Below, one piece after another: positions 20,001 to 36,614 of a stretch of DNA of 39,864 nt. The notes beneath the pieces are model-generated. The model had not been told where the DNA came from and did not search any database. It saw only the letters and a list, made by a program, of their open reading frames with translations. A program made the translations under genes and the position numbers. Origin of the DNA: Candidatus Cloacimonadota bacterium (lineage in GTDB: Bacteria; Cloacimonadota; Cloacimonadia; Cloacimonadales; Cloacimonadaceae); the NCBI GenBank assembly GCA_012516855.1, contig JAAYWB010000036.1, positions 1 through 39,864 of the forward strand, given 5' to 3'. The first letter of the stretch is position 1. Every line of letters begins with the position of its first letter.

Positions 20001-20537
20001 TTCGTTGGTCACGAAGATGTTGCCATCCGGCAAACCGCTCCAGACGGGAGGATCAGGAACTGGTGTAACGTTTACGCGGATCACCGCCATCACTTCTGTG
20101 CTGCTGATCGGGTCGGTTGCCACCAAAACCAGGGATTCCGAACCATACCAGTTGGCTGTTATAGGAACAAACTGCAGCTTGAGCGGATTGCCCGGGTCCG
20201 GCTGGGTTATCGTGAAGCGAGTGGAAGGGTATAAAAATGAAAGCGTCAGGGCTATGCTTTCCGGATTATCTATGTGCCTGGTGAAATCTTTGGTCCAGGC
20301 CACATCCTCCAAAAACAAACCTGTGTCCGGATCGTCGATGTCAATGGCGTCCGGAAGGTTATATGGCGACGAGTCGAAATTGAAAGAAAAGCTCCTCGTC
20401 TGGGAATTGTTTCTGGCAATAAGCTCCAGAATCTCCGGTGAAAGCTCCGGGGTTCCCTGGTCAACCGGAATCCCGGTCTGCGCGAAGAGAGCGATTGCGC
20501 TCAACATCACGGCCAAAACCAACAAAAATCTATTCAT
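11061..20537 (-). CDS. Giant secreted repeat protein with C-terminal sorting domain
   Basis: 3158 residues, the largest gene here. Order: signal peptide (1-20); beta-sandwich/cadherin-like region (~60-360; VTASDVENDELTYTW); 30 tandem chitobiase/hexosaminidase C-terminal-like units (~361-2962, about 87 residues each); a fibronectin-III-like domain (~2965-3065; GFNVYRRKLTESGF); and a sorting-type domain (~3070-3158; AWPNPATDQTEIVV ... GRGTYFARV). The last is typical of type IX cargo, so the protein is probably surface-attached or released. No catalytic domain is seen; adhesion, matrix or polysaccharide binding is likely but unproven. Cysteine is very rare. AAGGAG lies 7 nt before ATG; a strong promoter is at 20670-20697. 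It heads an operon with a PorV-like barrel and a PorE-like protein. Confidence 0.88.
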   Translation of the reverse strand: MNRFLLVLAVMLSAIALFAQTGIPVDQGTPELSPEILELIARNNSQTRSFSFNFDSSPYNLPDAIDIDDPDTGLFLEDVAWTKDFTRHIDNPESIALTLSFLYPSTRFTITQPDPGNPLKLQFVPITANWYGSESLVLVATDPISSTEVMAVIRVNVTPVPDPPVWSGLPDGNIFVTNEETVLQIEFQDYVSCIDSADPTNFDLSVLFADFPITVTQEPPGTGSLVTFTPHLDYNGMATYEITAVDRLSNAYSSQTIYINVLGVNDPPEIDSWQPVELTQNIDQGALLAFSVTASDVENDELTYTWTHSGIHNGVPFSDVVSTTSSLDWQFNIPGTQSISCEVSDGQATDSVVWSVIVRPNGPLFNPPGGTYTSGISVTLAPPAGFEGAVIYFTTDGNDPTETSEVYTAPIAVDALPNAENEVAIKAFFTYPGFPPSQIESESYRITGTLPEPGFMPLGGLFYAPVEVTLSNANPAAVIYYTLNGNDPSPGMPGTLEYELPIQVGAETTVTIKALATREGWMNSTVASQTYIVTGTVQIDSHTMTPPPLPEGEFYLIDQGQYLAVEIGGLSVTPASATVYYTLDNSLPGPGNPSAQVYTSGQQIQLTNPTWITFKAYLDDWQASDTYSYYYDVRAKTVLLDYANGTVFDPAPGYSTTPVSVSISSSTLPSGAAVYYTLDGSDPDPATSQIYSGPILIEETTTIKALAQYPGLYPSDIQTGLFTITGTVAAPVFDPLPGSFSSAIQLNMSSSTPDAAIYYSLDGSEPAPNATGSFLYEGPVDLGNGLHQVWARAFKEFWDPSTITEGTCGIGILPAPEFDLAEGLYWDPIVVHLSVPGAPAASIHYTTDGSNPTEFSTLYNPGTGIPIGLQTSYNIKAIAVQAGWINSAVTQRAYQVTGTVTTPAFTPDGGTYSVSTTVAITSYPADAVIRYTLDGGEPSLENGTTYEGPILINSSATLKARAFRDDWRPSEIYGAIYTIIGNIANPVFTPGAGTYTSPVDVYISVNPPDATIYYTTDGSEPSLSNGTAYVTGNPVHVAQDMLLRAKAYKSGWNPSEITNAQYYITGTVSAPVFDPPSGQYASAQAVSLTAVPATAQIIYTLDGTTPSLGNGTVYENPINVSANTIIRAFAWLEGWEPSAVSTASYVINGPVGLPIINPAAGYYNTPQTVSISVIPAAATIRYTLDGSEPTLDNGFTYSAPFPIQGHTVVKAYAYRENWLDSAVATAEYFFVVSNPVITPPGGSFASAQTISMSVGTAGASIRYTLDGTNPTPEYGDLYVGQFELTSSATIKAIAYRSNWINSNIVSQSYVINGPVSDPMFSVASGDFSAPFSVSITTLPAGSTIYYTTDGTEPSETNGLVYGSPLQIQQNTVLKARAYRANWLPSNVSSAEYNFFVSPVSIVPNGGTFTSSQNVTLSTVTPDAQIHYTLDGTNPVPGSSPVYDPLIPILVDHDLVLKTMATKTNWYSSAITSATFDINLPLPDVATPVIQPPSGVYNTAQTVTITTATPEATLVYTTNGTDPSLDNGTHYTGSFTVSNNVTIKARGFKDGYDPSPIATVQYVIVIPIETVETPVFSPPAGIYNEPVQVAISTQTPEASIRYTLDGTEPSETVGNLYMGPVNISQTTTIKAIAFKTGMNTSLISNASYVINIIIPEVAAPMFSHPSGTYYQPINLSISTTTENAQIRYTTDGTLPSPTHGTVYQSPIHISSDTNLFIQAIAYRDGWNSSPVVSASYTVTGTVADVSFAPGGGIYTQATPVVLTTSTAGATIHYTTNGSEPNEGSAVYTTAIVVQLNSTVTIKAKAYKAGWQPSATTQETYTVTGQVIITPPIFSLSAGVYTTPQTVSINNPIPADATIRYTTDGSDPTTTSEIYNGPINLGLNQTVTLKARAFRENWIPSPLYSATYVMTGQVTLPAALFTPPAGTYQTAQTVTINPPLLPTDATLRYTLDGSEPSQFSPAYITPIQLGLNSTTTIKVKGFRDNWIPSAPATATYVITGQATFQTPVFSPAPGVYTTAQQITVNGTVPSDAVIRYTIDGNDPTELSPQYTAPINLSLGTSLTLKVRAFKANWTPSEIHTGNYTTTGAVTITLPVFTPNPGLYTSPQAVVINTTTIPAGATLRYTLDGSDPNESSPVYSNPIQVGNGQSVTIRVRAYAANWQPSQIHTGVFTVTGQVSIAEPVFTPPAGTYQTAQVVTLNTITTPAGATLRYTLDGTEPTSSSQIYTTAIQLALGSMTTIKVKAYLNNWLPSPTYTAIYNITGALNIAEPVFTPAAGIYQTAQSVVINTTTSPAGGTVRYTTDGSTPTASSPIYTTPIVVPLNTTTTVKAMAFLTGWAPSQVYTAVYTVTGQVQLPAQVFTPAAGTYQTAQSITLNTNTTPAGATLRYTLDGSVPTENSPAYTAPINLPLNSTTTISVKAFKANWTPSTTATATYVITGQVVFQTPIFTPPEGIYQTAQSIAVAATIPSDATIRYTMDGTEPTSSSSIYTGPINLPLNSTTTLKVKAFKTNWTASATQTATYTITGQASIQTPVFSPSPGTYQTAQSVSINNITIPTGAQIRYTLDGSEPTETSQIYTQPIQLAMNNSYEIRARAFAVHWVPSQTYVGYYTITGAVTIPDPVFTPAAGTYTSNIAVVLNTQTNPAGATLRYSLDGSEPTESSPAYTQPIELTAPANVTIKVKAYKNDWLPSQTYSAQYFLTGQMQLMPPYLSPAPGVFTETISVTSVGGTNPSGGTIRFTTDGSTPTESSPVFDEPVSIGLNSIDFTITIRAFKEGWIPSEPWTGVYSVTGHVQLPQVMFSPEPGTYQSAQSVTLAAATLPANATIRYTTDGTEPTENSAAYTAPITLPQNATSTLKARGFADGWIPSETQTAVYTITGTVSPPVFSPPGGTFGAPVFVVISSPTEDSEIRYTTDGSEPTAESALYTEPVIVPNFAQNMVISARAFKADWTPSPVASATYSIFSAPIDVRGFTYAGYIRVLWNLPDAGKGLDGFNVYRRKLTESGFTKINTSLVNTQVDGNYYYDDYSIEMEVSYEYYVTAVYGGTESPASASTVEYYQSQDLDISDASYAWPNPATDQTEIVVILNRNNNVTLTVSIYDFAGKKVQTITEPSQNSNQIRIPWNLKNISGAKVGRGTYFARVVANDGVNRSEHVIKIAVK
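11648..19456 (-). repeat. 30 tandem ~260-bp units inside the giant gene
   Basis: Each unit encodes about 87 residues: a start like PVFTPAAGTYQTAQ, a core such as ATIRYTTDGSEPTESSP, then a KAKAF...WTPS strand and an ITGQ-type linker. I count 30 units by hand. Two sub-types are seen: upstream units 7-16 often have SLDNGT or LENGT after the core, while units 17-29 share TYQTAQ and LNSTTTIKVKAF and are more alike. Unit 3 is irregular, with a long insertion and a weak core. Confidence 0.88.
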
Positions 20538-22347: not shown

Positions 22348-23133
22348 TTAAATATCCAGCAGGGGGGGGTGTCCGTTCTGCCCGGCCACCAGCAGCCGGA
22401 TGTCGCTGCGAACGGTTTCCAGATAGTTGCGCATGGTCTCCAGGGCAAGCTGAGGATCGTTGTTGGTCTCGCTGAGATGGGCCAGGACAAGGTTTTGGAG
22501 CCCGTGATGCATCACCTGGCTCACCATGCCAACGGCCTGGAGGTTGGAAAGATGTCCGATGTTGCTTTTGATGCGCTGTTTCAAAGCCCAGTCATAAGGC
22601 CCGTCCATCAGCATCCGCTCATCGTGGTTGCTCTCCAAAACAAGGGTGGTGCAGCGTTTCAGCTTGTTCAGGGTCAGCGTGGAAGGAAATCCCAGATCGG
22701 TGGCCACGCCCAGTTTGCGCTCCTCGTCGCCAGCCCGGGTAAAGGTGAAGTTGCAGCTGTCCGCGGCGTCGTGGGGTGAGGAGAAAGGATGGATAACCAG
22801 ATCACGGATGCTGAAGCTGCTGCCGGTTTCGAATTGTATGACCCCGGCGGGAATATCTCCGAGGCGGCTTTTGCACTGGTCCAGAGTGCCTTCATTGATG
22901 TAGAGCGGGATTCTCAGCTTGCGGGCTAGAGCCCCCACTCCACGGGTATGGTCAGAATGCTCATGGCTCACAATCACGCCCTGAAGCTCGTTGTGTCCAA
23001 CGCCCAGAGAATCAAGAGCCGCAAGGATGTTCCTGGCGGCAACGCCGGAATCCAGCAACAACGCCGCTTCGCCTGTGCGCACAAGGATGGCGTTGCCCTT
23101 AGAACCGCTCACCAATACCGAGGTTTGAAACAT
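22348..23133 (-). CDS. MBL-fold metallohydrolase (YycJ/WalJ-like)
   Basis: 261 residues of the metallo-beta-lactamase fold. The N-terminus SVLVSGSKGNAILV is characteristic of the YycJ/WalJ group, which contains putative nucleases or regulators of the cell cycle. The metal motif HEHSDH is at residues 57-62; further ligands are in SSPHDAADS and LESNHDE, and a late conserved histidine is in LAHLSETNND. It is the last gene of the long rimP operon; its ATG is 2 bp after the yhaM-like stop codon, so it is translationally coupled. I see no convincing terminator in the 51-bp convergent gap that follows. Exact substrate unknown. Confidence 0.87.
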   Translation of the reverse strand: MFQTSVLVSGSKGNAILVRTGEAALLLDSGVAARNILAALDSLGVGHNELQGVIVSHEHSDHTRGVGALARKLRIPLYINEGTLDQCKSRLGDIPAGVIQFETGSSFSIRDLVIHPFSSPHDAADSCNFTFTRAGDEERKLGVATDLGFPSTLTLNKLKRCTTLVLESNHDERMLMDGPYDWALKQRIKSNIGHLSNLQAVGMVSQVMHHGLQNLVLAHLSETNNDPQLALETMRNYLETVRSDIRLLVAGQNGHPPLLDI

Positions 23134-23135
23134 CC

Positions 23136-24086
23136 TCAGATCTTGGTGAGGTGGTAATAGCGGTTGTTCAGCTTGTCGTATTCGCTCCAGACAGCGTTTT
23201 CCGGGGCAGCTTCCAGCATCTGGGCCACACCCACGCTCTGGGCGTCCAGATTGTCGCAGAGATGCAGAACCAGCGCTTCAATGGTCTGGGGCAGGCGCAC
23301 GGAGGCTTTTTCGTATTCCCCGTGATGGGCCAGGATCATGTGGCGCAAATTGAGCAGGATTTCATCCGGGAAACCGGCTATCATCCTGGCTTGTTCGCAG
23401 ATATACTGGTCGCTGAGGCTGAGGTGTCCGATCAGGCGTCCCACTTCTGTGAAATCTATCGCTGGCATGGTGTTGTATTCGAAAATCTTGCCAAAGTCGT
23501 GCAGCAAAGCCCCCGTGAGCAAAAGGTCGCGGTTCACGGGATACATCACCGAAACAAAATCGCAGAGGGTGGCAACGGACACCGTGTGTTCGATGAGCCC
23601 ATGCATATAGTTGTGATGCCAACTTTTGGCCGCGGGGGCTTCCAGAAACCGAGAGAAGATTTCCTTGTCGCCAAAGACGGCTTGCAGCAGTTTGTGCAGC
23701 CAGATGTTCTCCACTTTGTCCACAAAAGCGAAGAACTGCTCCGCCAAAGTGTCCGGATCCTTTTTGCTGCGGGTTACGAAATCCTCGAGCCGGTATTCGG
23801 AGTGGTCGGCAAAACGGATTTGGGAAACGTTTAGCTGGATTTGCTCCTTGTAGCTGTTCACCAATGCCTTAACGTGCACCACATCGCCCGCGGAGAAAGA
23901 TTCGCTGATGTTTTTGGCGTCTTTCCAGACGTTGCCGGCGATGGTGCCGCTGCGGTCCTGCAAACGCAGGCGCAGATACTGGTCGTTCCTGCCGTCGCGC
24001 AGTTCCTTTTCAGCCACCAGATAGAAGCCTTGGATCTCTTTGCCGAGATATTCCTTTAATTCTGAGATGTCGATGTGATCAGTCAT
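23136..24086 (-). CDS. 3'-5' exoribonuclease, YhaM family (OB-fold + HD domain)
   Basis: 316 residues. The N-terminal OB-fold (~15-95) contains LRLRLQDRSGTIAGNVW, typical of the nucleic-acid-binding module of YhaM. The HD hydrolase domain (~155-300) shows HHNYMHGLIEHT and LLHDFGK (H196, D197) and a later HMILAHHGEYE. YhaM trims RNA and single-stranded DNA from the 3' end in a metal-dependent manner. Length matches the family (~310-320). The gene starts 7 nt after the sorted-protein gene in an operon otherwise rich in RNA enzymes, which supports an RNA role. Confidence 0.88.
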   Translation of the reverse strand: MTDHIDISELKEYLGKEIQGFYLVAEKELRDGRNDQYLRLRLQDRSGTIAGNVWKDAKNISESFSAGDVVHVKALVNSYKEQIQLNVSQIRFADHSEYRLEDFVTRSKKDPDTLAEQFFAFVDKVENIWLHKLLQAVFGDKEIFSRFLEAPAAKSWHHNYMHGLIEHTVSVATLCDFVSVMYPVNRDLLLTGALLHDFGKIFEYNTMPAIDFTEVGRLIGHLSLSDQYICEQARMIAGFPDEILLNLRHMILAHHGEYEKASVRLPQTIEALVLHLCDNLDAQSVGVAQMLEAAPENAVWSEYDKLNNRYYHLTKI

Positions 24087-24092
24087 TTGGGC

Positions 24093-25991
24093 TCACTTTA
24101 TAATGTTTATCCTTTTATTAACGGTGGTTGTTCCGCCCTCTGGCAGGGGGACCTGAACCCGGAGCAGGTAAACCCCCGAGGCGGGAAATTCGCTTCCAGC
24201 CAAAGTCAGTTCCGCTTTGTTGCCTTCCAGGTCCAGAATCTTCTGTCCGCGCAGGTTGTAGATTCTCACCCGGCCCAGTTTCTGTCCCTTGTCCAGGCTG
24301 ATTTTCAGCCAGCCGTCGCCTCTGAGCGGATTGGGGCTCACTCTCAGCACAGGGGCCGGCTGGACCTCGTCCTGGACGGCAACCACATTGGTGAAATCAC
24401 TATAGGCGGAATAGAGAATCCTGCCGCCGCCGGAAAGCTGCAGCCAGTAGTAGAGGCGGTAGTTTTGGGCCAGTTCGTCCAGGGAAAGGTCGCTGAGTGA
24501 CAGGTTGAAGTTCAGCCTAAATTCTTCGCCCTGGCCCAGAGGGCCGCTCAGAGGGGCTCCGTGGGTTATCCAGCGGTCGATCACGAAGCGCTCGGCGCCG
24601 TCAAAGATGACTTTTTTGAAGAGCCCCACGCTCAGGCGGGTGGAATTGATCAGGTTATACTCGGTGGCGATGTTGTAGAGCAGGGTATTGTCGTTGGCAA
24701 GGGTCAGTTCCCCGCTGAGCAGGTCATTCTGTGCAATGTGCTCAAACCGGCATTCCGAGGCCGACACGAATGATTTAAGGTCCCGCGCGGCCAGGCAGTG
24801 CTGTTCATACTGAGTGCCGTAACCCGACGAAAACCCGTTCAGGCGCAAATCCCCGTTTACCGCAGTGCGGGGCAGGGTGTTGAAGCTGTACCAGTTGAAC
24901 CTGATTTGCGCGGCCACGTTGGCCAGGGAGTCGCTGAGGATGGGGAAATAGTTCAATATATGGATGTCTGGAAAAGAGAAAGGATCCTGGTTGGTGGTGA
25001 TCTGGGCCGAACCGCCCTCGCGCAGGAAATTCTCCGCCAGCCAGATGGGATAAGGGTCAGCGAAGCTGAAGCGGTTCAGCAAGATCAGGTTGTTGCCTGC
25101 CGCCAGGGTATCCGCCAAAGCGCGTGCCACAGCGCGGACCTTAAGCTGCATTGGCTGGTCAGGAAGGCTAAACTGGTGTTCGGAGTATCCGGGGCTTTGG
25201 GGGCCGAACACATATTCTGAGCGGGGCGGGATCGGTTCGCTGATGGCGATGGTGTCTGCCCGGGTGAAGGTGTTTCCCGGCGAATTGACCGTTACGGTCA
25301 CGGTCGCGCCGCTCACGGTGAGGTCGGAATGGTTGTAGAGCGTGAATCCCGGGCCGGTTTGCTGCCGGGGCTGGAGATCGCCCTCCAGGTCGAAATCCAC
25401 GAGTTCCAGATCAAAGTTGCTGAGCACAAAATCCCCCGCCAGGCCAAAGAGCAGTTCCGCGTTGAAGCCTGCCGTGGCCAGGCTTTGGAAATAGGGGTTG
25501 ATGCTGTTTGTGTTCCAGTAATAGCTGTGCTCGCCCCCTCCGGCGGAAGCTGCCACAAAGCGGTTGGCGAAATTGGTGGCATAGGTTACCACCAGCCACA
25601 GGGAATCACCCTGCACGGGATTCGAGAAAGGAACCTCTACCTGATTTGAGTTCACAGGCACCTTAGCCCAAGCCAGGCTGGCTCCCGGGCCTCCATAATA
25701 GTCCGAAAACAATTCCACCCGCACCGAATCCCCTGTTTGAGGCAGCCAAAGCAGCGCCTTGGTAACTTGGAATTCGCTGTTGTAGTTGGCTGGATAGACC
25801 TCCGCGAAATTGAAGCGGACCGCCCAGATATTGGAGCCGTAAAAATGATAGTCGTCGCTGCCTTGGTGATAGGCAAAGTTGTATTCCCTTTCGGCGGCAG
25901 GCCAAACGTCCTGTCCGCTGCCGGGAAGGATCCCCAGGGCGAAGGACATGCTGTAGAGGACACTCAGGGCGAGGATCAGACCGTATTTCAC
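24093..25991 (-). CDS. Secreted protein with type IX-like C-terminal sorting domain
   Basis: 632 residues. The signal peptide MKYGLILALSVLYSMSFALG is followed by a long beta-rich region with no enzyme motif that I recognise. It includes CARDB-like segments (~205-300; TLYNHSDLTVSGATVTVTV) and a thioredoxin-like-looking stretch (~310-430). The C-terminal ~85 residues (VSPNPLRGDGWLKISL ... RVRIYNLRGQKILDL ... GVYLLRV) are a sorting domain like that of the giant protein. The GTG start at 25991 overlaps the ribF stop by 4 bp, with GGAGG upstream. A surface-sorted protein here, inside a translation/RNA operon, is unexpected. Confidence 0.82.
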   Translation of the reverse strand: MKYGLILALSVLYSMSFALGILPGSGQDVWPAAEREYNFAYHQGSDDYHFYGSNIWAVRFNFAEVYPANYNSEFQVTKALLWLPQTGDSVRVELFSDYYGGPGASLAWAKVPVNSNQVEVPFSNPVQGDSLWLVVTYATNFANRFVAASAGGGEHSYYWNTNSINPYFQSLATAGFNAELLFGLAGDFVLSNFDLELVDFDLEGDLQPRQQTGPGFTLYNHSDLTVSGATVTVTVNSPGNTFTRADTIAISEPIPPRSEYVFGPQSPGYSEHQFSLPDQPMQLKVRAVARALADTLAAGNNLILLNRFSFADPYPIWLAENFLREGGSAQITTNQDPFSFPDIHILNYFPILSDSLANVAAQIRFNWYSFNTLPRTAVNGDLRLNGFSSGYGTQYEQHCLAARDLKSFVSASECRFEHIAQNDLLSGELTLANDNTLLYNIATEYNLINSTRLSVGLFKKVIFDGAERFVIDRWITHGAPLSGPLGQGEEFRLNFNLSLSDLSLDELAQNYRLYYWLQLSGGGRILYSAYSDFTNVVAVQDEVQPAPVLRVSPNPLRGDGWLKISLDKGQKLGRVRIYNLRGQKILDLEGNKAELTLAGSEFPASGVYLLRVQVPLPEGGTTTVNKRINIIK

Positions 25992-26890
25992 AGCTTCCCC
26001 TCCGCGACCAGTTCCCTGGCCTGGGCCAGATCCTGAAGCATGGCCTCCCGCAAGGCGTTGGTTCCTGTGAACATCTTTTCCTCCCTGAAATAGCGCAGCA
26101 ATTCCACTTTAAGCGGAACACCGTAGATCTGACGGTCAAAATCCAGAATATGGGTTTCCACCGCCACAATTCCGCTGTGTTTCAAAGTTGGGCTGGAGCC
26201 AATATTTGTCAATCCAAAAAAACTTTCCCCGCCCAGACGCACCCGGCTGAGATAGACCCCGTTCTTTGGCAGAATCTGCCGGGCTTCCTCCAAACGCAGG
26301 TTGGCTGTGGGAAAGCCCAGGTCGCGCCCCAGGGCGGAACCGCTTACCACCTTGCCATAAATGGTATAGGGGGCTCCGAGCAATCGGTTTGCCCCGACCA
26401 GATCGCCCTGGATGAGTATTTCCCGGATCAGGGTGCTACTAACCACCCGGTCGCCGTTTTGAAGCGGCTCCACGTAATGCAACTGATAGCCGTAGAGGGT
26501 TTGCTGTTCCTGTAAAAAAGCGTAGTCGCCCCTCCGCTGATGGCCAAAATGGGAATCATAACCCAGCACCAGAGCTGTGGGCTCAAAAAGGCCGACGATC
26601 TGGTCGCGAAGAAAGTCTTCCGCGGATACCCGGGAAAGTTCTTCATCAAAATGGAGCAGCGCCACCTCATCCACCCCCAGTTCTTTCAGCATTCTGGCTT
26701 TCTGCTGCGGAGGCAGCAGCAAGAGGGGATGCAGGTCACGATCAAGCACCTGGGAGGGATGGTTGTCATAGGTGATCACCACGCTTCTGAGCTTGAGCCG
26801 GCGAGCCAGTGCGGTCAGCTCGCCCAGCAGCTTGCGGTGGCCCAGATGCAGTCCGTCGAAATTTCCGATGCTTAAAACGCTGCCTTTCAT
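25988..26890 (-). CDS. ribF: Bifunctional riboflavin kinase/FAD synthetase
   Basis: Converts riboflavin to FMN and then FAD. The N-terminal nucleotidyltransferase domain has NFDGLHLGH (HLGH at residues 15-18) and later STLIREILIQGD. The C-terminal riboflavin kinase domain (~185-300) has LGRDLGFPTANL, and FFGLTNIGSSPT near residue 225. The 300 residues are normal. It follows truB by 5 bp, a truB-ribF pairing common in bacteria, and overlaps the next gene's start by 4 bp. Confidence 0.96.
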   Translation of the reverse strand: MKGSVLSIGNFDGLHLGHRKLLGELTALARRLKLRSVVITYDNHPSQVLDRDLHPLLLLPPQQKARMLKELGVDEVALLHFDEELSRVSAEDFLRDQIVGLFEPTALVLGYDSHFGHQRRGDYAFLQEQQTLYGYQLHYVEPLQNGDRVVSSTLIREILIQGDLVGANRLLGAPYTIYGKVVSGSALGRDLGFPTANLRLEEARQILPKNGVYLSRVRLGGESFFGLTNIGSSPTLKHSGIVAVETHILDFDRQIYGVPLKVELLRYFREEKMFTGTNALREAMLQDLAQARELVAEGKL

Positions 26891-26894
26891 AAAG

Positions 26895-27758
26895 TCACCT
26901 GAGGTTTATGACGGGCTGGACAAAGCCTGAGCTTCGTTTGGCCACACCAAGCAATGTGTCATTGCCGTCCAGCAGTAGGATGCGGTCCGTGTCCTTGCCT
27001 TCGCTGCCAATACCCTGTCCGTTCCTCAGCGCGGCAAGTTCGGCATCCCGCGGTTGGTAGAATTCAAAGCCCGTGAACAGATTTCGGGGCGGGTGGAAAG
27101 CAGCCTGATAATTCTCCGGCGTGAGCTCGTCCAGTTGCCAGGCCTCTGACAGATCAACCGCTCCGATGGCCTCTCTCCGCAAGGCGACCGTGTGTCCCAC
27201 TGTGCCTATACAGCCGGCGATATATTCACTCAAGCTGCGGATATAGGTCCCCTTGGAAACACGGCAAACATAGGTCAAATCGGGGGGATCGTAGTTCAAG
27301 ACGCCGAATTTACTGATTCGGACGGGCCGCGGGGCAAGGTCCAGCTTTTCACCCTTGCGGGCGTAGTCATAAGCCGGCCGGCCATTCACTTTCAGCGCCG
27401 AATGCTGCGGAGGGCTCAGTTCCTTCAGCCCAAGCACCCGTTCATGCAGAAAGGCTTCGTCCAGCTTGTCCGGGATGGGGCCATCTTGACGCACGAAATC
27501 TCCCTCTGTATCGCCGGTGTTGGTCTGGCTGCCCAGTCTCAGAGTGGCTGAATAGGTCTTATCCTCCGCCTCAAGGTATCCGCAAAGTCGGGTGACGGAG
27601 CCAAGCGCGCAGATTAGCAGCCCGGTAGCTAAAGGATCAAGGGTACCGGTATGTCCTATCCTCCTGATCCCGGTCAGCTTTCGCAGTCCGCGCACTACGT
27701 CGAAGGAGCTGCAGCCTGACGGTTTGTCGATCAGCAGGAATCCTCTCGGTTCAGGCAT
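26895..27758 (-). CDS. truB: tRNA pseudouridine(55) synthase
   Basis: Makes pseudouridine 55 in the tRNA T-loop. The catalytic motif GHTGTLDPLATGLL has the nucleophilic aspartate at residue 41, after the N-terminal GFLLIDKPSG. KGTYIRSL and the C-terminal PUA-like region are present. I start at ATG 27758 (287 residues): it overlaps the nrnA stop as ATGCCTGA and leaves the family N-terminus intact, whereas the longer frame adds 23 residues that are a shadow of nrnA. Confidence 0.96.
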   Translation of the reverse strand: MPEPRGFLLIDKPSGCSSFDVVRGLRKLTGIRRIGHTGTLDPLATGLLICALGSVTRLCGYLEAEDKTYSATLRLGSQTNTGDTEGDFVRQDGPIPDKLDEAFLHERVLGLKELSPPQHSALKVNGRPAYDYARKGEKLDLAPRPVRISKFGVLNYDPPDLTYVCRVSKGTYIRSLSEYIAGCIGTVGHTVALRREAIGAVDLSEAWQLDELTPENYQAAFHPPRNLFTGFEFYQPRDAELAALRNGQGIGSEGKDTDRILLLDGNDTLLGVAKRSSGFVQPVINLR

Positions 27759-28758
27759 TCGCAGGTAGATTGCGCAAAGTCCGGTCCAAATTGCCCAGCA
27801 ATTCGGCCTTGAGCGAGTCCAGATCACCGCGCAAGTTGGCCCCGGAAGCGCTCACGTGACCTCCGCCTCCATAGGCGACGGCAACGGAGTTAACGTCGAA
27901 TCTGGGGGAACGCAGGCTGAGCCTGTATTCGCCGGGCTTCTCTTCCCTCAGGTAGGCAATGATGTCGATATCGCGAACACCCTGCACCCAGCGGGTGATG
28001 TTCATGATCGAGTCGGCGGTGAGCTTGTTGCGGGCCTGCATTTCCAGAGTGGAATACATATAGAGGACGCGACCATCGTTGTGCAGCTCGATAGTGGAAA
28101 GAACTTCGCCGATGTAGCGCATCTCCAGGGCTCCGTGATTGAGGAAATATTCCTTGTAAAGCTGTGCGGGAGAGATGCCCAATTCACAGAGTTCCGCCGC
28201 GATGCGGAAAACCTCGGCATTTGTGTTGGCATTGATAAAGTTGTTGGTGTCGTTGATGATCGTTACATAGATGCAGTTGGCCACCGCGATCCTCAAAGCC
28301 TCCGGCAAGGCGGCTATTTCGCTTTGCAGAGCCCTGAAAACTATCGCCCCGGCAGAAGCCGCGGAGGTATCCACAAAGCTGTAATCAGTTTTGATAATGC
28401 CGTTCTCCGGAACGTGATGGTCAATAAGGATCACGTGGCTGGCATCCCGGATGAGGCCTGTGCGTTCGTCCACCCGACTGTAGCTGTTGCAATCCAGCAC
28501 AATCAGCAGATCGTAGCTCATGCCCTCATGGTAAGTGAGGACCGAAGCTCCCTCCATCAGGAAAGCGAAGCGTTCCAGATGCGAATCCTGGTCCACGATG
28601 ATTTCGCTTTCAAGGCCCCTGTCCTTTAGGATCAGTTGCAAGGCCAGACTGGCCGCGAAGCCGTCACCGTCCGGTTCAACGTGGGACATGATGCCCACTT
28701 TCCGGCCTGGTATCAGTTGGGCTAGCAGTTTATCGTGCAATTTCTGGGAATTTTTCAT
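27751..28758 (-). CDS. nrnA: DHH/DHHA1 phosphoesterase: nanoRNase / PAP phosphatase
   Basis: Degrades 2-5-nt RNAs and dephosphorylates pAp. The DHH domain shows SHVEPDGDGFAAS (residues ~23-35), VLDCNSYSRV and LIDHHVPENG. The C-terminal DHHA1 domain ends with GGGGHVSASGA. I choose ATG 28758 (335 residues), preceded by GGGGA 8 nt upstream; upstream starts at 28803 or 28812 would add a tail not typical of NrnA. It lies between rbfA and truB, the common rbfA-nrnA-truB order. The 94-bp gap before it is the largest in the operon. Confidence 0.92.
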   Translation of the reverse strand: MKNSQKLHDKLLAQLIPGRKVGIMSHVEPDGDGFAASLALQLILKDRGLESEIIVDQDSHLERFAFLMEGASVLTYHEGMSYDLLIVLDCNSYSRVDERTGLIRDASHVILIDHHVPENGIIKTDYSFVDTSAASAGAIVFRALQSEIAALPEALRIAVANCIYVTIINDTNNFINANTNAEVFRIAAELCELGISPAQLYKEYFLNHGALEMRYIGEVLSTIELHNDGRVLYMYSTLEMQARNKLTADSIMNITRWVQGVRDIDIIAYLREEKPGEYRLSLRSPRFDVNSVAVAYGGGGHVSASGANLRGDLDSLKAELLGNLDRTLRNLPANA

Positions 28759-28852
28759 TTTGATGTTCCCCACATCAGCCCCACTCTTGTCCCACAGCCC
28801 CATCCGGAGCACGCTTCCGCGGGGACCGCTCTGGGTTCAGGGGCCGGCGGGT

Positions 28853-29344
28853 TTATTGGTCCTTTTCCTCTTCCTCTTCCTCTTCTTCCTGGATGAACTC
28901 GTTGTAGAGTTCCTCGTCTTCGTCCACGTCGTAAATGTCATCATCGTCCAGATAGTCTTCCAAGTCTATATCTGGGTCATAAGCATCATCATCGTCGTCG
29001 TATCTCTGCTTGAGTGAGGCCAGCAAAACTTCTACCGCCTCGGCCCTGTCCTCTGTCTCGTCATAGAAGAAGGTCAGCTCGGGAATCGTTCTCATGATCT
29101 GTGCTCCTGCGATCTGTTTTTTTAGGAACCCCGACGTCTTGATCAGTTGTGCCCTGATGCTGTCGTGAGTAGCGGGGTTGTTGTAATGAGAAAAGTATAT
29201 CTTGGCATACCTGAGGTCTTTGGACAAGACCACATCCGTAATAGTCACCCAGTCCAGCGCGGGGTCCCGCATTTTCTGGCTGATGGCGATGTTGAAAAGC
29301 TTTTTCAGCTCTTCCTGCAAACGGGGTATTCGGTGTGATTTCAT
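28853..29344 (-). CDS. rbfA: Ribosome-binding factor A with a long acidic tail
   Basis: 30S maturation factor that binds near 16S helix 1. Residues 1-114 form the KH-like RbfA fold (RIPRLQEELKKLF; DVVLSKDLRYAKIYFSHY; PELTFFYDETEDRAEAVEVLL). Residues 115-163 are an appended tail in which 30 of 49 residues are Asp or Glu, ending with eight glutamates in a row. Most RbfA proteins stop at about 110-130 residues. Its ATG shares one base with the infB stop codon (TGATG). Repeated GAA/GAG codons at 28861-28890 make the tail prone to slippage. Confidence 0.94.
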   Translation of the reverse strand: MKSHRIPRLQEELKKLFNIAISQKMRDPALDWVTITDVVLSKDLRYAKIYFSHYNNPATHDSIRAQLIKTSGFLKKQIAGAQIMRTIPELTFFYDETEDRAEAVEVLLASLKQRYDDDDDAYDPDIDLEDYLDDDDIYDVDEDEELYNEFIQEEEEEEEEKDQ

Positions 29345-31962
29345 CAGAGTTTCTTGGCCACCTCTTCAAGCACATAACATTCCAAAACGTCGCCTTCCTT
29401 GATATCGGAGAAATTGGCCAGGGAAAGGCCACACTCCGTTCCCGCCTTCACTTCAGCCACGTCGTCGGCGTAGTGTTTCAGCGAGGACAGGTCGTCTTCC
29501 GTCACCTGCACGTCGTTGCGGAAAAGGCGCACTTTGCAGCCCCTTTTGATCACTCCACGGTCCACCTGGCAGCCGGCGACGGTGCCCACTTTCTTGATCT
29601 TGAAGACCTGGCGAACGGTGGCGGAGCCGATTACGGACTCTTCGATTGTGGGTTTGAGCATTCCCTCGAGCGAATGGCGTACGTCTTCGATGGTATCGTA
29701 GATCACCTGATACAGTTTGATTTCCACCCCTTCTTCCTCCGCCAGTTTGCGGGCGAGATGGCAGGCCCTGACGTGGAAGCCCAAAATGACTGCGTTGGAG
29801 GCCGAGGCCAAGCTAACGTCCGCCTCATTGATGCCGCCCACGCTCTTGTGGATGATGTTCACCTGCACTTCTTCGTTGGAAAGCTTCTCCAGCGAATCAG
29901 CCAGGGCTTCGGCGGAGCCGTCGGTATCAGTTTTCAGGATGATATTGAGCTCGTTGATAGCTTCTTCCTTGATGCGGGCGAAGATATTCTGCAGCGAGGA
30001 TTTGTTTTGGAATTTCTCGCGTTCAAGGCGGATCTGGTTCCGTTCGGAGCTGATGCTGCGGGCGGTTTTTTCGTTGTCCACCTGATTGAGGAAGTCGCCG
30101 GCCTTCGGAGCCTCGTTAAGACCGTAAATCCTGCCAACATCTGAGGGATTAAGGATTTTTATGTCCTGGCCGCGTTCGTTCTCAATTTTGCGGATTCTGC
30201 CATGGGTGGCGCCGCAAACGATGATGTCCCCCTTGCTCAGGGTGCCTTCCTGTACGAGGATGGTGGCCACTGAACCCATGCGGGTGTCTTTGGCGGCTTC
30301 GATAACCACAGCCAGGCCCGGCATTTTCCGGCGGGCTTTGAGTTCCATCAGTTCCGAAGTGAGCAGGATAAGTTCGATCAGGTTCAGGATGCCTTCCCCG
30401 GTAACCACAGAGGTTTTGCACCAGGGCACCTCTCCCCCGTACTGCTCCAGCAAAACGCCGTATTCCAGCAACTGCGCGACAACGCGGTCCACGTTGGCGT
30501 CCGGCAGGTCGATCTTGTTGATGGCGATGATCAGGTTCACCCCGGCGGCTTTGGCGTGGTCGATGGCCTCGCGGGTCTGGGGTTTCAAGCCTTCGTTGGC
30601 CGCCACCACGATCACGGCGATGTCGGTAATGTTCGCCCCCCTGGCCCGCATGGCGGTGAAGGCTTCGTGGCCGGGCGTGTCCAGGAAGGTGATCTTGTTC
30701 TTGTTGATCTCGATCTGATAGGCGCCGATGTGCTGGGTGATGCCTCCGGATTCCCCCGCCACGATGTTTGTGTTGCGGATGTAGTCCAGAATCGAGGTCT
30801 TGCCGTGGTCAACGTGTCCCATAATGGTCACCACGGGCGGCCGGGGTTCTTCTTCCACTTCAGCGTACAAATCTTTGTTCCCTTCCAGAACGTCAGTGCC
30901 GTACTCATCTTCAAAGCTGAATGGTACTTTGAACTCATCGCAGACCATTTCCAGCGAATCGCGGTCCAGACGCTGGTTTATCGTGACCAACTGGCCCATG
31001 GCGAAAAACTTGCTGATGATCTCGGCCGCTGAAACATTCAGGATCTTGGCCAGTTCGCTCACGGAGGTGAATTCGCGGATGACGGCCGGGCTGTCGCTGC
31101 CGTCTTCCACCTGTTGGGCTTCGCGATGGTATTTTTTCTTCTTTCCAGTCTTCTGCAAAACTTTCTTGATATTGCGGGAAATTTCGGCTTCGTCGGCTTC
31201 CACGAGCTGGACATCCTTATGCTTGGACTTTTTGGAGGTGCCCATGATGGCCCTTTTGTGGCGGCTCTTTTCGCCCAGATCTTCATGGCTGACCTTGCTC
31301 TTGCCGAACTTCTTCCCTTCGGACTCCTTCATAGGGCCGACTGGAGGGATAGGCTCCACAGGTTCCTGCTTCCTGCGTGGTTCTTCAGACCGCTTTCTGG
31401 ATTCCACCCGGGACCGGGTTTCGCTTTTTTCTTCATGTCCGACCTGGGAGGATTTGGCGCGCGCCGGCTTGCTCCGGGGCTGAACCGGGGTGGCTTGGGT
31501 GTAAGGAACGATAACGCGGTGCTTGGGTGCCTCCCGGGTGGGCGGAACATACTTTTCCGGCTGAATGGGGGCTTCCAGCGCTTCTTTTTCCTGTTCTGGC
31601 TCTGTCGTCTCTGGAGTTTCTGGCAGGGGTTCCGGTTTTTTCTCGGCTTTCTTGCGGCTTTTCTTTTCTTTCGCTGGCTTGGTCGGGGCTTCCTCTGCGA
31701 CCTCCTCCGGCGCTTCCGGGGCAGGTTCTGCCTTGGCGGTCTTGGCCGCCTGGCGCATTTCCATGACACGCTTCCTTTCCTTTTCCGCTCTCTTTTCCGC
31801 GTCCATCTGCTCGTTGTATTTCCTGCGGATCAGGTCCGCCACTTCCTCGTCCACGAGGCTCATGTGGCTTTTCACGATTACGTTAAGGTCGGTAAGGTGT
31901 TTCCTCAGCGCCATGGTGCTGATCTTCAGTTCTTTGGCCAGTTCATGTACTCTTATTTGCAC
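29344..31962 (-). CDS. infB: Translation initiation factor IF-2
   Basis: GTPase that brings initiator tRNA to the 30S subunit. An IF2-N domain (VHELAKELKIST, residues 4-15) is followed by a long charged linker (~60-290), a second N-domain (VSELAKILNVSAAEIISKF), the G domain (GHVDHGKT near 380; DTPGHEAF; NKIDLPD) and C-terminal beta-barrel domains. I start at GTG 31962 (872 residues): GGAGGAA lies 4 nt upstream, and the conserved N-terminus begins right there; the longer frame reads into ylxQ. It overlaps ylxQ by 20 bp and rbfA by 1 bp. Confidence 0.97.
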   Translation of the reverse strand: MQIRVHELAKELKISTMALRKHLTDLNVIVKSHMSLVDEEVADLIRRKYNEQMDAEKRAEKERKRVMEMRQAAKTAKAEPAPEAPEEVAEEAPTKPAKEKKSRKKAEKKPEPLPETPETTEPEQEKEALEAPIQPEKYVPPTREAPKHRVIVPYTQATPVQPRSKPARAKSSQVGHEEKSETRSRVESRKRSEEPRRKQEPVEPIPPVGPMKESEGKKFGKSKVSHEDLGEKSRHKRAIMGTSKKSKHKDVQLVEADEAEISRNIKKVLQKTGKKKKYHREAQQVEDGSDSPAVIREFTSVSELAKILNVSAAEIISKFFAMGQLVTINQRLDRDSLEMVCDEFKVPFSFEDEYGTDVLEGNKDLYAEVEEEPRPPVVTIMGHVDHGKTSILDYIRNTNIVAGESGGITQHIGAYQIEINKNKITFLDTPGHEAFTAMRARGANITDIAVIVVAANEGLKPQTREAIDHAKAAGVNLIIAINKIDLPDANVDRVVAQLLEYGVLLEQYGGEVPWCKTSVVTGEGILNLIELILLTSELMELKARRKMPGLAVVIEAAKDTRMGSVATILVQEGTLSKGDIIVCGATHGRIRKIENERGQDIKILNPSDVGRIYGLNEAPKAGDFLNQVDNEKTARSISSERNQIRLEREKFQNKSSLQNIFARIKEEAINELNIILKTDTDGSAEALADSLEKLSNEEVQVNIIHKSVGGINEADVSLASASNAVILGFHVRACHLARKLAEEEGVEIKLYQVIYDTIEDVRHSLEGMLKPTIEESVIGSATVRQVFKIKKVGTVAGCQVDRGVIKRGCKVRLFRNDVQVTEDDLSSLKHYADDVAEVKAGTECGLSLANFSDIKEGDVLECYVLEEVAKKL

Positions 31963-32302
31963 TTGGTTCCTCCACTTTGGCGATGCCGCTGTGATATTCC
32001 AGCATCCGGGTGGCAAATTGTTTGTCAGTTATTCCGTAAATCCCTGTGATGGGCACGCCCAGGGCGGCGCTCAGCTCCAGCTGGCTGCTAATGCGTGTGA
32101 CGCCGGTGTTCCCCAGGGCCAGCCGCGCTGCGGCTTCCATCCGGGCGACGGAGCGTTCCGCGGTGTCCGAGGCGATGACTATCAGCCTCAGGCCCCGGGA
32201 ATTAAGCTCCCGCAGGCAGGCGTCCGTTCCCGCGATCAGTTTCCCAGCTTTCCTGGCAAACTGCATCAGGTTGATGATTTTGCGGGTGAGTTCGGCTTCC
32301 AT
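31943..32302 (-). CDS. ylxQ: L7Ae-fold ribosomal-protein-like protein (YlxQ type)
   Basis: 119 residues with the L7Ae/L30e RNA-binding fold: RKIINLMQFARKAGKLIAG at residues 6-24, then LRLIVIASDTAERS and GVPITGIYGITDKQF. YlxQ occurs between ylxR and infB in many bacteria and probably binds structured RNA. The ATG at 32302 shares one base with the ylxR stop (TGATG). A much longer reading frame through this region only reflects an out-of-frame extension over ylxR. Confidence 0.88.
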   Translation of the reverse strand: MEAELTRKIINLMQFARKAGKLIAGTDACLRELNSRGLRLIVIASDTAERSVARMEAAARLALGNTGVTRISSQLELSAALGVPITGIYGITDKQFATRMLEYHSGIAKVEEPSANKST

Positions 32303-32571
32303 CAGTTTTTCCCCGCGGAAGCGAATATGGCTTCCGAACGCAGTTTGAATCTGCGTTTCAGATGGTTCCGTTTCCATTTGTCCAGCCCGCGCAGGCAATC
32401 CGGACCCTGGCAGACGTAATGTTTGCGTCTCTGCACCCGGCGCCGTGGATCGAACACGATGCCCTGGGGCAGCACGAAGAAACTGAGCAGTTCCTTCGCC
32501 TCCCTTTTGGCGCGGCAGACCACACAGGTCCGCTGTGGCACGTGTTCCGCGTGGCTGTTCTTGTTCGGCAT
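32302..32571 (-). CDS. ylxR: YlxR family RNA-binding protein (DUF448)
   Basis: 89 residues. RTCVVCRAKREAKELL near the N-terminus and YVCQGPDCL are the conserved YlxR elements. Known members bind nucleic acid, and one was reported to bind the RNase P protein-RNA complex. The ATG at 32571 shares a base with the nusA stop (TGATG), so nusA, ylxR and ylxQ are linked by stop-start overlaps. A longer frame from 32637 reads through nusA sequence and is rejected. Confidence 0.88.
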   Translation of the reverse strand: MPNKNSHAEHVPQRTCVVCRAKREAKELLSFFVLPQGIVFDPRRRVQRRKHYVCQGPDCLRGLDKWKRNHLKRRFKLRSEAIFASAGKN

Positions 32572-33806
32572 CAGAATAATTTGGCGGCTTCCTTGAGCCG
32601 TTCGGCGGTTTTCTGTCCCACCCCCTCCAGGTTGCAAAGCTCATCCACCGAGGCGGCGTAGATATCCTGAACGGAGGTGTAGCCAGATTGGCGCAGGACC
32701 TCGGCGATTTTAGGGGTCACGCCGTCCAGGTCGGTGACGTGGCTGACGGTGCGGCGTTCCTTGGCCATCTTTTCCTCAAATTCTTCTTGAGTGTAGATGT
32801 CGATTTTCATTCCGGTGAGTTTGGTGGCTAGTTTCACGTTTTTGCCGCCCTTGCCGATGGCGACCACCTTGTCCGGCTCTTCCACGATAACGCTTGCGGA
32901 GCGGTTGCGCTCGATTATCACGCGCTTCACCTTTTCCACGCCCAGGGCCCGTTCTATCATCTTTTCGGGGTCTTCATCATGCACCACGATGTCGATCTGT
33001 TCTCCGCGCAGTTCTTTGCGGATGCTGTCGATGCGGGCTCCGCGCGGGCCGACGCAAACGGCCACGGGGTCCAGCTTCGGGTCTGTGCTCATCAGTTCCA
33101 CCTTGGTGCGGATGCCTGGTTCCCGCACGATTTTCAATATCTTTATCGTGCCGTCGTAAACTTCGGGGATTTCCGTCTCGAAGAGTTTTTTCACGAATTC
33201 CGGGTTCGTGCGCGAGAGGATTATCGTCACATTTGAATGGTGGTTGCGGATGTTTGTCACGTAGGCCTTGATGTTGTCGCCCACACGGTAATACTCGTTT
33301 TCCACCTGCTCGTCGGCCGGCAGCAGGGCGTCCGTGTAGCTGATATCTATGCGGTAGCCGCCGGTGTCGTCGATGGTCTTGATCTTGCCGCTCGCAATGG
33401 TGTGCTTCTGCTTGTTGAAGTCGTTCTGGATCTTTTCTTCCTCGAGCTGGCGTATCTTGTCTTGGATCGCTTTCTGGGCGGTCTTGATCAGTTTGGGCTC
33501 AAATTCGTGCATGGCCATCACCTGCGGAACGAAATCCCCCAGTTGGGTGGCCCTGCCGAACTGCTTCCTTGCTTCCTCCAGCGAGATTTCTCCCAGCCTG
33601 CTCTCGGTTTCTACCACCTGGCAAAGATAGTGGGCCTTGATGGTGTTGCTGCTTTCTTCAACAAAGATTTCCAGTTCGTTTTCCGGCTCCAGCTTCTTGC
33701 TCAGCGTAGTGTGGATCGCCTCCATTATCATTTCCTGGATGACTTCCTTGTCCAGTTGCTTGATGGCGGCAAGCTTCACCACCGCGTCAAGTATGTTAGC
33801 GTTCAT
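32571..33806 (-). CDS. nusA: Transcription elongation/termination factor NusA
   Basis: Binds RNA polymerase and nascent RNA, promoting pausing and hairpin termination. The N-terminal domain (1-~125) is followed by S1 (~135-200; EQVENEYYRVGDNIKAYV), two KH domains (~205-345; GPRGARIDSIRKELRGEQID and AIGKGGKNVKLATKLTGMKID) and a C-terminal helix-hairpin-helix region (~360-411; NLEGVGQKTAERLKEAAKLF). It lacks the two E. coli acidic repeats but has HhH instead. ATG 33806 follows GGAGG and overlaps the rimP stop (TAATG). The leader upstream of this operon contains a terminator, a plausible autoregulation site. Confidence 0.97.
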   Translation of the reverse strand: MNANILDAVVKLAAIKQLDKEVIQEMIMEAIHTTLSKKLEPENELEIFVEESSNTIKAHYLCQVVETESRLGEISLEEARKQFGRATQLGDFVPQVMAMHEFEPKLIKTAQKAIQDKIRQLEEEKIQNDFNKQKHTIASGKIKTIDDTGGYRIDISYTDALLPADEQVENEYYRVGDNIKAYVTNIRNHHSNVTIILSRTNPEFVKKLFETEIPEVYDGTIKILKIVREPGIRTKVELMSTDPKLDPVAVCVGPRGARIDSIRKELRGEQIDIVVHDEDPEKMIERALGVEKVKRVIIERNRSASVIVEEPDKVVAIGKGGKNVKLATKLTGMKIDIYTQEEFEEKMAKERRTVSHVTDLDGVTPKIAEVLRQSGYTSVQDIYAASVDELCNLEGVGQKTAERLKEAAKLF

Positions 33807-34279
33807 TATTGCTCCTCCCTCTTCGGTGAGGCTAGATAGACTGTTTTGGCCCGGGAAATCGCTTTCAGCTCAATTTCCACCCGGCTGCCCCGGTCGTCCA
33901 GGACCACGTTGTCCTGATTTACCTCGACCAGCGTGCCCAAGGCAGATCTCTTCTGCTCTCCCTCGGTCCATTGCACCGCCACCTTTTCGTTGATGGCGCT
34001 CACCCAGTGGCTTTTCAGCTTCAGGGGACGCTCCAGCCCGGGTGACGACACTTCCAGAAAATAGCGGTCCGGAATCAGGTCAAATTCCTCCAGTTCCGCA
34101 CCCAAGGCGCGGCTGAACCGGGCGCACTCGTCCAGGGTCACCCCGCCGATCTTGGTGAGGTAAACCGTGATGATGCGGCCCTTGCCGGACATCTTTTCAT
34201 CCAGGTCGTACAGCGCCAGATGCTGCTCCAGGCAAATCCGGCGGGCAATTTCTTCAACTTGCGGACGGTAATACTCCAT
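33806..34279 (-). CDS. rimP: Ribosome maturation factor RimP
   Basis: 30S subunit assembly factor. The 157 residues contain the family hallmark YFLEVSSPGLERPL near residue 85 and the VDECARFSRAL-like stretch before it. The start at ATG 34279 is chosen because AAAGGA (34291-34286) lies 6 nt upstream; an in-frame GTG at 34297 precedes that site. First gene of the long operon that runs to 22348. Confidence 0.95.
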   Translation of the reverse strand: MEYYRPQVEEIARRICLEQHLALYDLDEKMSGKGRIITVYLTKIGGVTLDECARFSRALGAELEEFDLIPDRYFLEVSSPGLERPLKLKSHWVSAINEKVAVQWTEGEQKRSALGTLVEVNQDNVVLDDRGSRVEIELKAISRAKTVYLASPKREEQ

Positions 34280-34309
34280 CTTGCTTCCTTTACACACTCT
34301 TTTTGTGTC

Positions 34310-34338
34310 AAAAAAAATAGCTAACTTCCGTAGCTATT
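34310..34338 (-). terminator. Leader terminator/attenuator upstream of rimP
   Basis: On the minus strand, AATAGCTA (34338-34331) and TAGCTATT (34323-34316) make a perfect 8-bp stem with a 7-nt loop, followed by an unbroken run of eight T (34317-34310). It sits between the promoter at 34406-34433 and the rimP ATG at 34279, so transcripts must read through it. Confidence 0.75.
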
Positions 34339-34346
34339 CGTCCTTA

Positions 34347-34382
34347 CAAAGGCAATTCTATGATCAAAGCCAGCGGCCTTTG
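34347..34382 (-). promoter_or_regulatory. Leader hairpin with two alternative pairings
   Basis: CAAAGGC (34382-34376) can pair with GCCTTTG (34353-34347), or the overlapping CAAAGGCC can pair with the nearer GGCTTTG (34371-34365) with one bulged G. The two folds share the same left arm and exclude each other. Both lie just before the terminator hairpin in the rimP leader. Confidence 0.45.
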
Positions 34383-34405
34383 CACCGCTTTATAAACTGA
34401 CGGTC

Positions 34406-34433
34406 ATTTTCTGGGCGGCTGTTTTGGTGTCAA
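34406..34433 (-). promoter_or_regulatory. Promoter of the rimP-nusA-infB operon
   Basis: A perfect -35 TTGACA (34433-34428), a 16-bp spacer and -10 GAAAAT (34411-34406; four of six consensus bases). The spacing equals that of the tmRNA and giant-gene promoters. The predicted start is near 34399, giving a 120-nt leader. Confidence 0.65.
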
Positions 34434-34730: not shown

Positions 34731-36614
34731 ATGAACGCAATGTACTTTGGAACTGTGGGAGAATTGAAGTCCATCCGGGCTTCCGGGAATTTCGAGAAAT
34801 TTCTGGTGGACTGCTTCGTTTCGGAATTCGGCAAGCCTTCCGAGGCTTTGGTCAATTCCTGGCTCAATTCCACAGGCTATATGCTTGACCTGATGTCCGA
34901 TCCCGAATTCGACGCCCTTCCAGCCATCCTTGAGCTTCAAATTCCTATCGGTGCTGAGCGGCTGGACCTGGTGTTGCTGGGAGGAACAAAGTCCAAACCA
35001 AAAGCTCTCATTATCGAACTGAAGCAATGGAGTTCCGTGAAACAAGTTCCGGGTCAGCAACTACTTGTCGTGCCCCGCGAAGGCCGGGCCCAGCACCCCA
35101 GCGAACAAGCCCTAAACTACCGGGGAAAGATGATGATGTTCAGTTCCCTGGGAGAGGCCTACGAATGGCGGGCTATCGCCGTGGCTCACAACCTAGGGAT
35201 GAAATACCAGCCGGTGGCTGAGTCTGCTGAATTCACTGATTTCACCCGAGAAGCTCGGCTGTTCTACACTGAGGAAAGGAAGGAACTCCGGGAATACCTA
35301 TTCTCCGAACTCCTCCCCTGCGATTTGGGTGCTGCTGAACTGCAAAGTTTCACGAAAGGTGGGTTTGCACACACTGGCTTTTTTTTCGATTTCTTCCGCC
35401 GCCACGCCAAAGACATCAGAAATAATATCCAAAAAGCCCTTTATGACAAAGGTATGGGTCTAACACAGGTACAGCGCCTGATTGTGGAGGACATTTTGGA
35501 AAAGGTCGCTTCAGGCGAAGAAGCCTGTTTCTTGGTCGAAGGCCGTCCAGGAACCGGAAAGACCCTTCTGGCAGCCCAACTGCTGCTTAAGACCATTGGC
35601 GCCAACAAATCCAGCGTGATGGCCTTCCGCAATAACCGCCTGGTGGCAATCCTTAGAAAATGCTTCAACAACGCCGGCCCTGGCGCAGCTAACGCTCTGC
35701 TCTTCAGTTCGGTACCCATGTATCAGATCGGCCTTGCGGACAAGAAATACCACGATAACCAATTCGACTTCGTGGTCTGTGACGAGGCCCAAAGGTTTTC
35801 GGCGGAAAACATCGGGGTTATCATGAAACGCGCCCCAGTGACGGTTTTCTTCCATGACGAACCCCAGCTGCTCAATCCCCCGGAACAGGGCGACACCGCC
35901 ACCTTCGAAAAAGTGGCGGCTCAAGTGGGGAAAAATCTTATCAGACTCAACCTCGGCTCCCCGGTCCGCTGCCGCGGCGGCAAGGTTTATCAGGACTGGG
36001 TTGATAGCTTTGTGGAACACTCTCAAGCCCGGGCCCCGAAAATGAATAACTACCGGCTTGAGGTCTTTAGCTCCATCAATGACATGATATCCGAACTGCG
36101 CATACTTGCTATGAAACACAGGGTCGCCCTGGTGGCCAGCTTTACAGAATCCAAAGGCAAAAAAGGCTCCGTCGACGATCCGGACAACCTCCGCATAGGC
36201 CATCCCCTGTCTTCGGGGCTGGACATCTACAAAAATTCCGGCCTAAACATCCCCTGGCTGATGGACCCCCAAAAGGACTACACCCCCTACTGGCTTGGCG
36301 GCGAAAGCAACAACCTTGACCGGATCGCCTCCATCTACGGCTGCCAGGGCTTCGAAAGCGACTATGTGGGAGTGGTCTGGGGCCGCGATTTTATACGCCG
36401 GGGCGACACTTGGAAGGTGGGCCATCCGGACATCATCACCGACAATATCGATAAATTGCAGGTCTATGTCCGTTCCAATGGCGATAAGGCCCTCATCTAT
36501 TTCCAAAACCGCTACCGCATCTTCCTCACCCGGGGGATGCTGGGCACCTTTATCTTCTGTGAGGACCCGGAGACGAGTGAGTATCTGGAAACGGCTATAA
36601 TCAGGGGAAAATAA
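34731..36614 (+). CDS. Nuclease-helicase of the DUF2075 (Schlafen group 3-like) type
   Basis: 627 residues. The N-terminal part looks like a PD-(D/E)xK nuclease: ERLDLVLLGG (D79), then IIELKQW (E97, K99). A helicase-type ATPase follows, with Walker A EGRPGTGKTLLA (residues 270-281) and Walker B VVCDEAQ (~348-354). Near the C-terminus are CQGFESDYVGVVWG and RIFLTRG, a motif VI equivalent. Such proteins occur in defence islands and mobile regions. ATG 34731 follows AAGGAG. The neighbour downstream is a decayed nuclease-like gene, which fits an accessory island between rimP and the polysaccharide genes. Confidence 0.85.
   Translation: MNAMYFGTVGELKSIRASGNFEKFLVDCFVSEFGKPSEALVNSWLNSTGYMLDLMSDPEFDALPAILELQIPIGAERLDLVLLGGTKSKPKALIIELKQWSSVKQVPGQQLLVVPREGRAQHPSEQALNYRGKMMMFSSLGEAYEWRAIAVAHNLGMKYQPVAESAEFTDFTREARLFYTEERKELREYLFSELLPCDLGAAELQSFTKGGFAHTGFFFDFFRRHAKDIRNNIQKALYDKGMGLTQVQRLIVEDILEKVASGEEACFLVEGRPGTGKTLLAAQLLLKTIGANKSSVMAFRNNRLVAILRKCFNNAGPGAANALLFSSVPMYQIGLADKKYHDNQFDFVVCDEAQRFSAENIGVIMKRAPVTVFFHDEPQLLNPPEQGDTATFEKVAAQVGKNLIRLNLGSPVRCRGGKVYQDWVDSFVEHSQARAPKMNNYRLEVFSSINDMISELRILAMKHRVALVASFTESKGKKGSVDDPDNLRIGHPLSSGLDIYKNSGLNIPWLMDPQKDYTPYWLGGESNNLDRIASIYGCQGFESDYVGVVWGRDFIRRGDTWKVGHPDIITDNIDKLQVYVRSNGDKALIYFQNRYRIFLTRGMLGTFIFCEDPETSEYLETAIIRGK

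Follow-up and report, generated by a model that had tools for sequence, protein, structure and literature searches.

A conserved terminator-bearing leader of the rimP-nusA-infB operon in Cloacimonadota, a likely attenuator with NusA as candidate effector

The window analysed here is a stretch of 39,864 nt of Candidatus Cloacimonadota contig JAAYWB010000036.1 (assembly GCA_012516855.1), and the leader under study lies on its minus strand at 34433-34280. Directly downstream is rimP (33806-34279, minus strand, ATG at 34279), the first gene of the operon, which encodes the ribosome maturation factor and is matched by many concordant NCBIfam RimP models, with a best E of 3e-26 that falls below the curated cut-off. 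The second gene, nusA (32571-33806, minus strand), matches TIGR01953 NusA at 299.8 bits, above the cut-off, and overlaps the end of rimP, so that this candidate feedback regulator is encoded within the controlled operon. Profile matches and shared strand define the remaining genes of the unit (22348-32637, minus strand), in the order ylxR/rnpM, an L7Ae-like gene, infB, rbfA, a DHH phosphoesterase gene, truB, ribF, and three more that encode a 632-residue protein, an HD/OB protein and a protein of the metallo-beta-lactamase fold. Together, the 12 same-strand genes from rimP onwards form one putative transcription unit. The 632-residue protein (24093-25991, minus strand) has no Pfam match. Elsewhere in the window, one open reading frame spans 3158 codons (11061-20537, minus strand) downstream of the rimP operon, and a tmRNA gene (RF00023; 1-304, minus strand) is cut by the window start. 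The product of the divergent neighbour of the leader (34731-36614, plus strand) has a Schlafen group 3 helicase domain (PF09848, E 1.1e-62) and an N-terminal part of no assigned family. The open frames upstream of rimP vary among relatives.

Inspection of the sequence from 34433 to 34280 gave the order promoter, hairpin H1, linker, hairpin H2, terminator hairpin H3, a run of eight T, the Shine-Dalgarno (SD) stretch and rimP. The promoter (34433-34406, minus strand) is sigma-70-like and matches the consensus at 10 of 12 positions, with TTGACA at 34433-34428, a 16-bp spacer and GAAAAT at 34411-34406; transcription is predicted to start at about 34399. H1 (GCGG-TGCAAAGG-CCGC, 34388-34373) is the upstream hairpin of the leader RNA. 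H2 (CCTT-TGT-AAGG, 34352-34342) stands immediately 5' of the terminator and is weak in the window (-0.4). H3 (AATAGCTA-CGGAAGT-TAGCTATT, 34338-34316), with T8 at 34317-34310, occupies 34338-34310 in all; it is the only hairpin with a T8 run in the window and has an 8-bp stem and an energy of -6.8 kcal/mol. Because it contains only two G-C pairs, it lies under the threshold of a generic terminator scan. RNA ended at H3 would measure about 90 nt. The ribosome-binding region of rimP, a 30-nt stretch recognized by sequence and fold (34309-34280), contains the SD AAAGGAAG at about 34291-34284. The leader as a whole folds only slightly better than shuffled versions of itself (z -1.74). These observations bear out the promoter and the rimP SD described in a sequence-only reading of the same DNA. 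That reading also called H3 a perfect terminator with an 8-bp stem plus eight T; hairpin and T8 are both there, but the full stem takes up two of the eight T, leaving either 8 bp and T6 or 6 bp and T8.

Folding of the read-through transcript predicts a pairing between the U-tract and the SD region (UUUUUUUGACAC with GUGU.GUAAAGGAA; 34317-34280, minus strand). A GAtgnaAAnngnGTGtg-like stretch 3' of the T8 run is partly conserved in the window's family, and this partial conservation together with the modelled pairing makes a translational effect possible.

Conservation was examined in a comparison set of 99 rimP leaders of the phylum Cloacimonadota; for the window's own family (f1, 50 genomes), 45 leaders were compared. 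A terminator hairpin followed by at least six T was found in 82 of the 99 phylum leaders, compared to 13 of 495 shuffled leaders. Within f1, TAGCTA-loop-TAGCTA is present in 42 of 45 leaders, and the T-run behind it is exactly eight in 40 of these, seven in one and nine in one. All 12 positions of the H3 stem are identical in 42/42, against a mean column identity of 56% for the leader, and energies range from -5.5 to -8.5 kcal/mol. The loops differ in length and sequence, with 6, 7, 8 or 10 bases between the hexamers. Because the stem is invariant in sequence, these data suggest that something reads the sequence itself and not the shape alone. The same invariance means that the H3 stem yields no covariation evidence for itself, which counts against the explanation that we favour below.

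In all 42 TAGCTA-type leaders, TTGAC(A/T/G) precedes the 3' arm of the terminator by 103-118 nt, while the distance from H3 to the rimP start varies from 44 to 232 nt. Because the first distance is nearly constant and the second is not, promoter and terminator form one unit. This unit is also specific to its locus. Each genome with a match to the TAGCTA pattern has a single copy of it, located at rimP (13/13). A covariance model of the leader (R1), built from 24 hand-picked leaders (alignment A2), had exactly one match, always at rimP, in each of 37 Cloacimonadota genomes and gave none in 23 loci from other phyla. Comparison among relatives shows selection on the leader, with the promoter, H1 and H3 as its conserved parts.

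H1 was analysed for covariation in the 24 hand-picked leaders and then in all 42, which removes the effect of hand-picking. In the full set, 62 cells were changed on both sides of the stem, compared to 29.4 ± 4.3 in shuffled alignments, a control that ignores relatedness, and to 9-26 when the partner strand was slid, a control that corrects for it. The H1 pairing is kept through compensatory changes, a pattern beyond the reach of the sequence-only reading. A hairpin of at least 4 bp at the position of H2 is found in 33 of 42 leaders versus 37% of shuffles, with a mean energy of -3.4 versus -0.9. The two competing pairings that the sequence-only reading described are both present in the window, where the H1 loop (GCAAAGGC, 34383-34376) can alternatively pair with the 5' side of H2 (GCCTTTGT, 34353-34346). 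However, the competing pairing occurs in only about five of the eleven genomes of the genus, and is a feature of a subclade and not of the family.

Two further candidates were set aside. An antitermination switch with two mutually exclusive structures was rejected because neither arm of H3 had a conserved competing partner; the duplexes that each arm can form with the leader upstream had the same energies as shuffled controls. A leader peptide (GTG CAA AGG ... TAA) was also rejected; its frame stays open in the window and in G002 and G010 but not in G001, and other genera lack it.

Other Cloacimonadota lineages carry different terminator stems at rimP. Terminators of the form (G)CTGAC-loop-GTCAG(C) with T-runs precede rimP in families f4, f5 and f9 and in genus g5 of f1, and the class-level sister family f13 has GCTGGTT/AACCAGC or GCTCCGA/TCGGAGC followed by T6. 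By the terminator scan used, no such terminator stands at rimP in seven small families (f2, f3, f6, f7, f8, f10 and f11). Within f1, GCTGAC stands alone in g5 (leaders L021, L022 and L161), both types occur in genome G018 (L020), and TAGCTA stands alone elsewhere. The g5 terminator lies about 44 nt past the -35 element, at the position that H1 has in the rest of the family, and in G018 the H1 position is occupied by a GCTGAC hairpin with CTTTTT, alongside the TAGCTA terminator. Because g5 has only the older type at this place and G018 has both, we infer from these positions that H1 may be a remnant of a GCTGAC-type terminator and H3 a later addition.

Terminators in this operon leader have been described before. 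A sequence-conserved terminator in the rimP leader was described as the most ubiquitous attenuator and ranked first among attenuated genes, and NusA was proposed to act on it (Naville and Gautheret 2010, PMC2965389). The Cloacimonadota element resembles it: the conserved terminator is specific to the rimP-nusA-infB leader, its distance from the start codon varies, no antiterminator is apparent, and NusA is the proposed effector. The published stem, however, is GGGc..gCCC, in contrast to the AU-rich TAGCTA and perfect U8 of f1, which also has a covarying hairpin upstream. The published type reads GAGTGGG..CCCACTC in 42 of 67 leaders (strict) from loci of other phyla, and either form of it is found in 0/99 Cloacimonadota leaders. 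Because GAGTGGG..CCCACTC is absent from all 99, the element lies outside the published sequence motif, although it would work in a similar way. In Bacillus subtilis, NusA stimulates termination in the 5' leader of its own operon and so regulates itself (PMC12288461). That leader likewise places an intrinsic terminator before a NusA-encoding operon, but NusA dependence was measured there, whereas the Cloacimonadota element, which differs in sequence and architecture, is known from sequence. In Streptococcus agalactiae, the transcripts of gbs0413-0418 share one start but come in a short and a long form, with premature ends for which NusA was proposed (PMC4448216). Here too a terminator precedes rimP-nusA-infB, but it lies 31 nt past the start, compared to about 90 nt and hairpins in front in Cloacimonadota. 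No Rfam covariance model matched the window leader at E<=5, nor the leaders of relatives, and a literature search for Cloacimonadota and attenuators found no paper. The suggestion that such regulation would be new was nevertheless too strong, given the earlier rimP-leader proposal and the known autoregulation in B. subtilis. The principle is already known; the novelty lies in an element specific to this clade, in its architecture of several hairpins and in its turnover among lineages of the phylum.

Because the leader is conserved across several genera, keeps a near-constant promoter-terminator distance, occurs in single copy at rimP and has a covarying upstream hairpin, it is very likely an attenuator of some kind, and that part of the sequence-only reading is well supported. 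H3 very probably works as its off-switch. Our preferred model is an attenuator in the 5' leader of rimP-nusA-infB in which the level of NusA sets the fraction of polymerases that stop, and we assign it a probability of roughly 0.6. RNA polymerase would start near 34399, transcribe H1 and H2 and then reach H3, where the invariant AUAGCUA stem and U8 would cause part of the polymerases to stop and release the leader of about 90 nt; termination at this point is what we infer from the sequence. The remaining polymerases would continue into rimP, nusA, ylxR, infB and the later genes. Plentiful NusA would increase pausing and termination at H3 and so lower expression of its own operon.

The position of nusA as second gene of the operon favours this model, as does the presence before rimP of terminators with other stems in f4, f5, f9, f13 and g5. 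H3 also has no upstream gene to serve, since the neighbour at 34731 is divergent and no clear same-strand gene lies between it and the promoter. On the other side, seven families appear to lack such a terminator by scan, termination at a perfect U-tract may need no NusA, and no antiterminator was better than shuffled controls. Established cases in B. subtilis, S. agalactiae and E. coli make NusA plausible as the effector, and our analysis puts its chances slightly above even. Mimicry of an rRNA leader through a shared NusA box was ruled out in G021, the genome in which it was sought: no hairpin similar to the rimP leader was found before the 16S gene that would suggest a common NusA site. The leader very likely extends attenuation of the NusA/IF2 operon to an uncultured, deep-branching phylum. 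A sequence-frozen terminator is retained in the operon, but lineages differ in which sequence is frozen: GAGTGGG..CCCACTC in Firmicutes-type leaders, and TAGCTA, GCTGAC or GCTGGTT within Cloacimonadota. Such differences open to testing a long-standing question, the identity of the reader of the rimP-leader stem: NusA and the other proteins of the operon can be compared, lineage by lineage, with the stem present.

We also considered readings that leave NusA out. A tentative one, to which we give perhaps a quarter of our belief, is that Cloacimonadota possess here a new, compact structured RNA in which H1 is the sensor, H2 a second hairpin, and the terminator stem is recognized by a protein dedicated to it and distinct from NusA. 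Its origin would lie within the phylum, as an older GCTGAC-type terminator became H1 and a new terminator was added downstream. A considerably less likely rival to the NusA model is an attenuator read through H1/H2 and the H3 stem by another product of the operon (RimP, YlxR/RnpM, the L7Ae-like protein or IF2) or by an unidentified ligand. The covariation of H1 and recurrence of H2 make the leader more than a bare terminator, the frozen H3 stem suggests specific recognition, and several RNA-binding proteins are encoded in the operon. Against this, a conserved antiterminator pairing was not found, no known RNA family matches the leader, and the established precedents for this operon favour NusA. 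We consider it improbable that H3 is a constitutive partial terminator, giving a constant fraction of read-through or a leader-derived small RNA without feedback. A simple hairpin with a perfect U8 indeed requires no factor, and the failure to find an antiterminator is consistent with a fixed leak, but such a leak needs neither a frozen stem sequence nor a covarying upstream hairpin. Finally, although TAGCTA is an invariant DNA palindrome, we reject the pair as a DNA-binding operator, an idea with very little probability left, on the variable spacing of the hexamers, the T-run that always follows, the position about 100 bp downstream of the -35 element, and the different yet pairing stems with T-runs in sister lineages.

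A second hairpin was observed at rimP outside the window's family. In most families of the order, an invariant ACCACTG-N(4-14)-CAGTGGT hairpin is located upstream of the SD and, in leaders that have a terminator, downstream of it, about 35-130 bases ahead of the rimP match (leaders L023-L031 and L162-L193; f2, f3 and f5-f11). It lacks a T-run, is absent from f1 rimP leaders and usually occurs once per genome, at rimP. This hairpin may be a second element, either translational or protein-binding.
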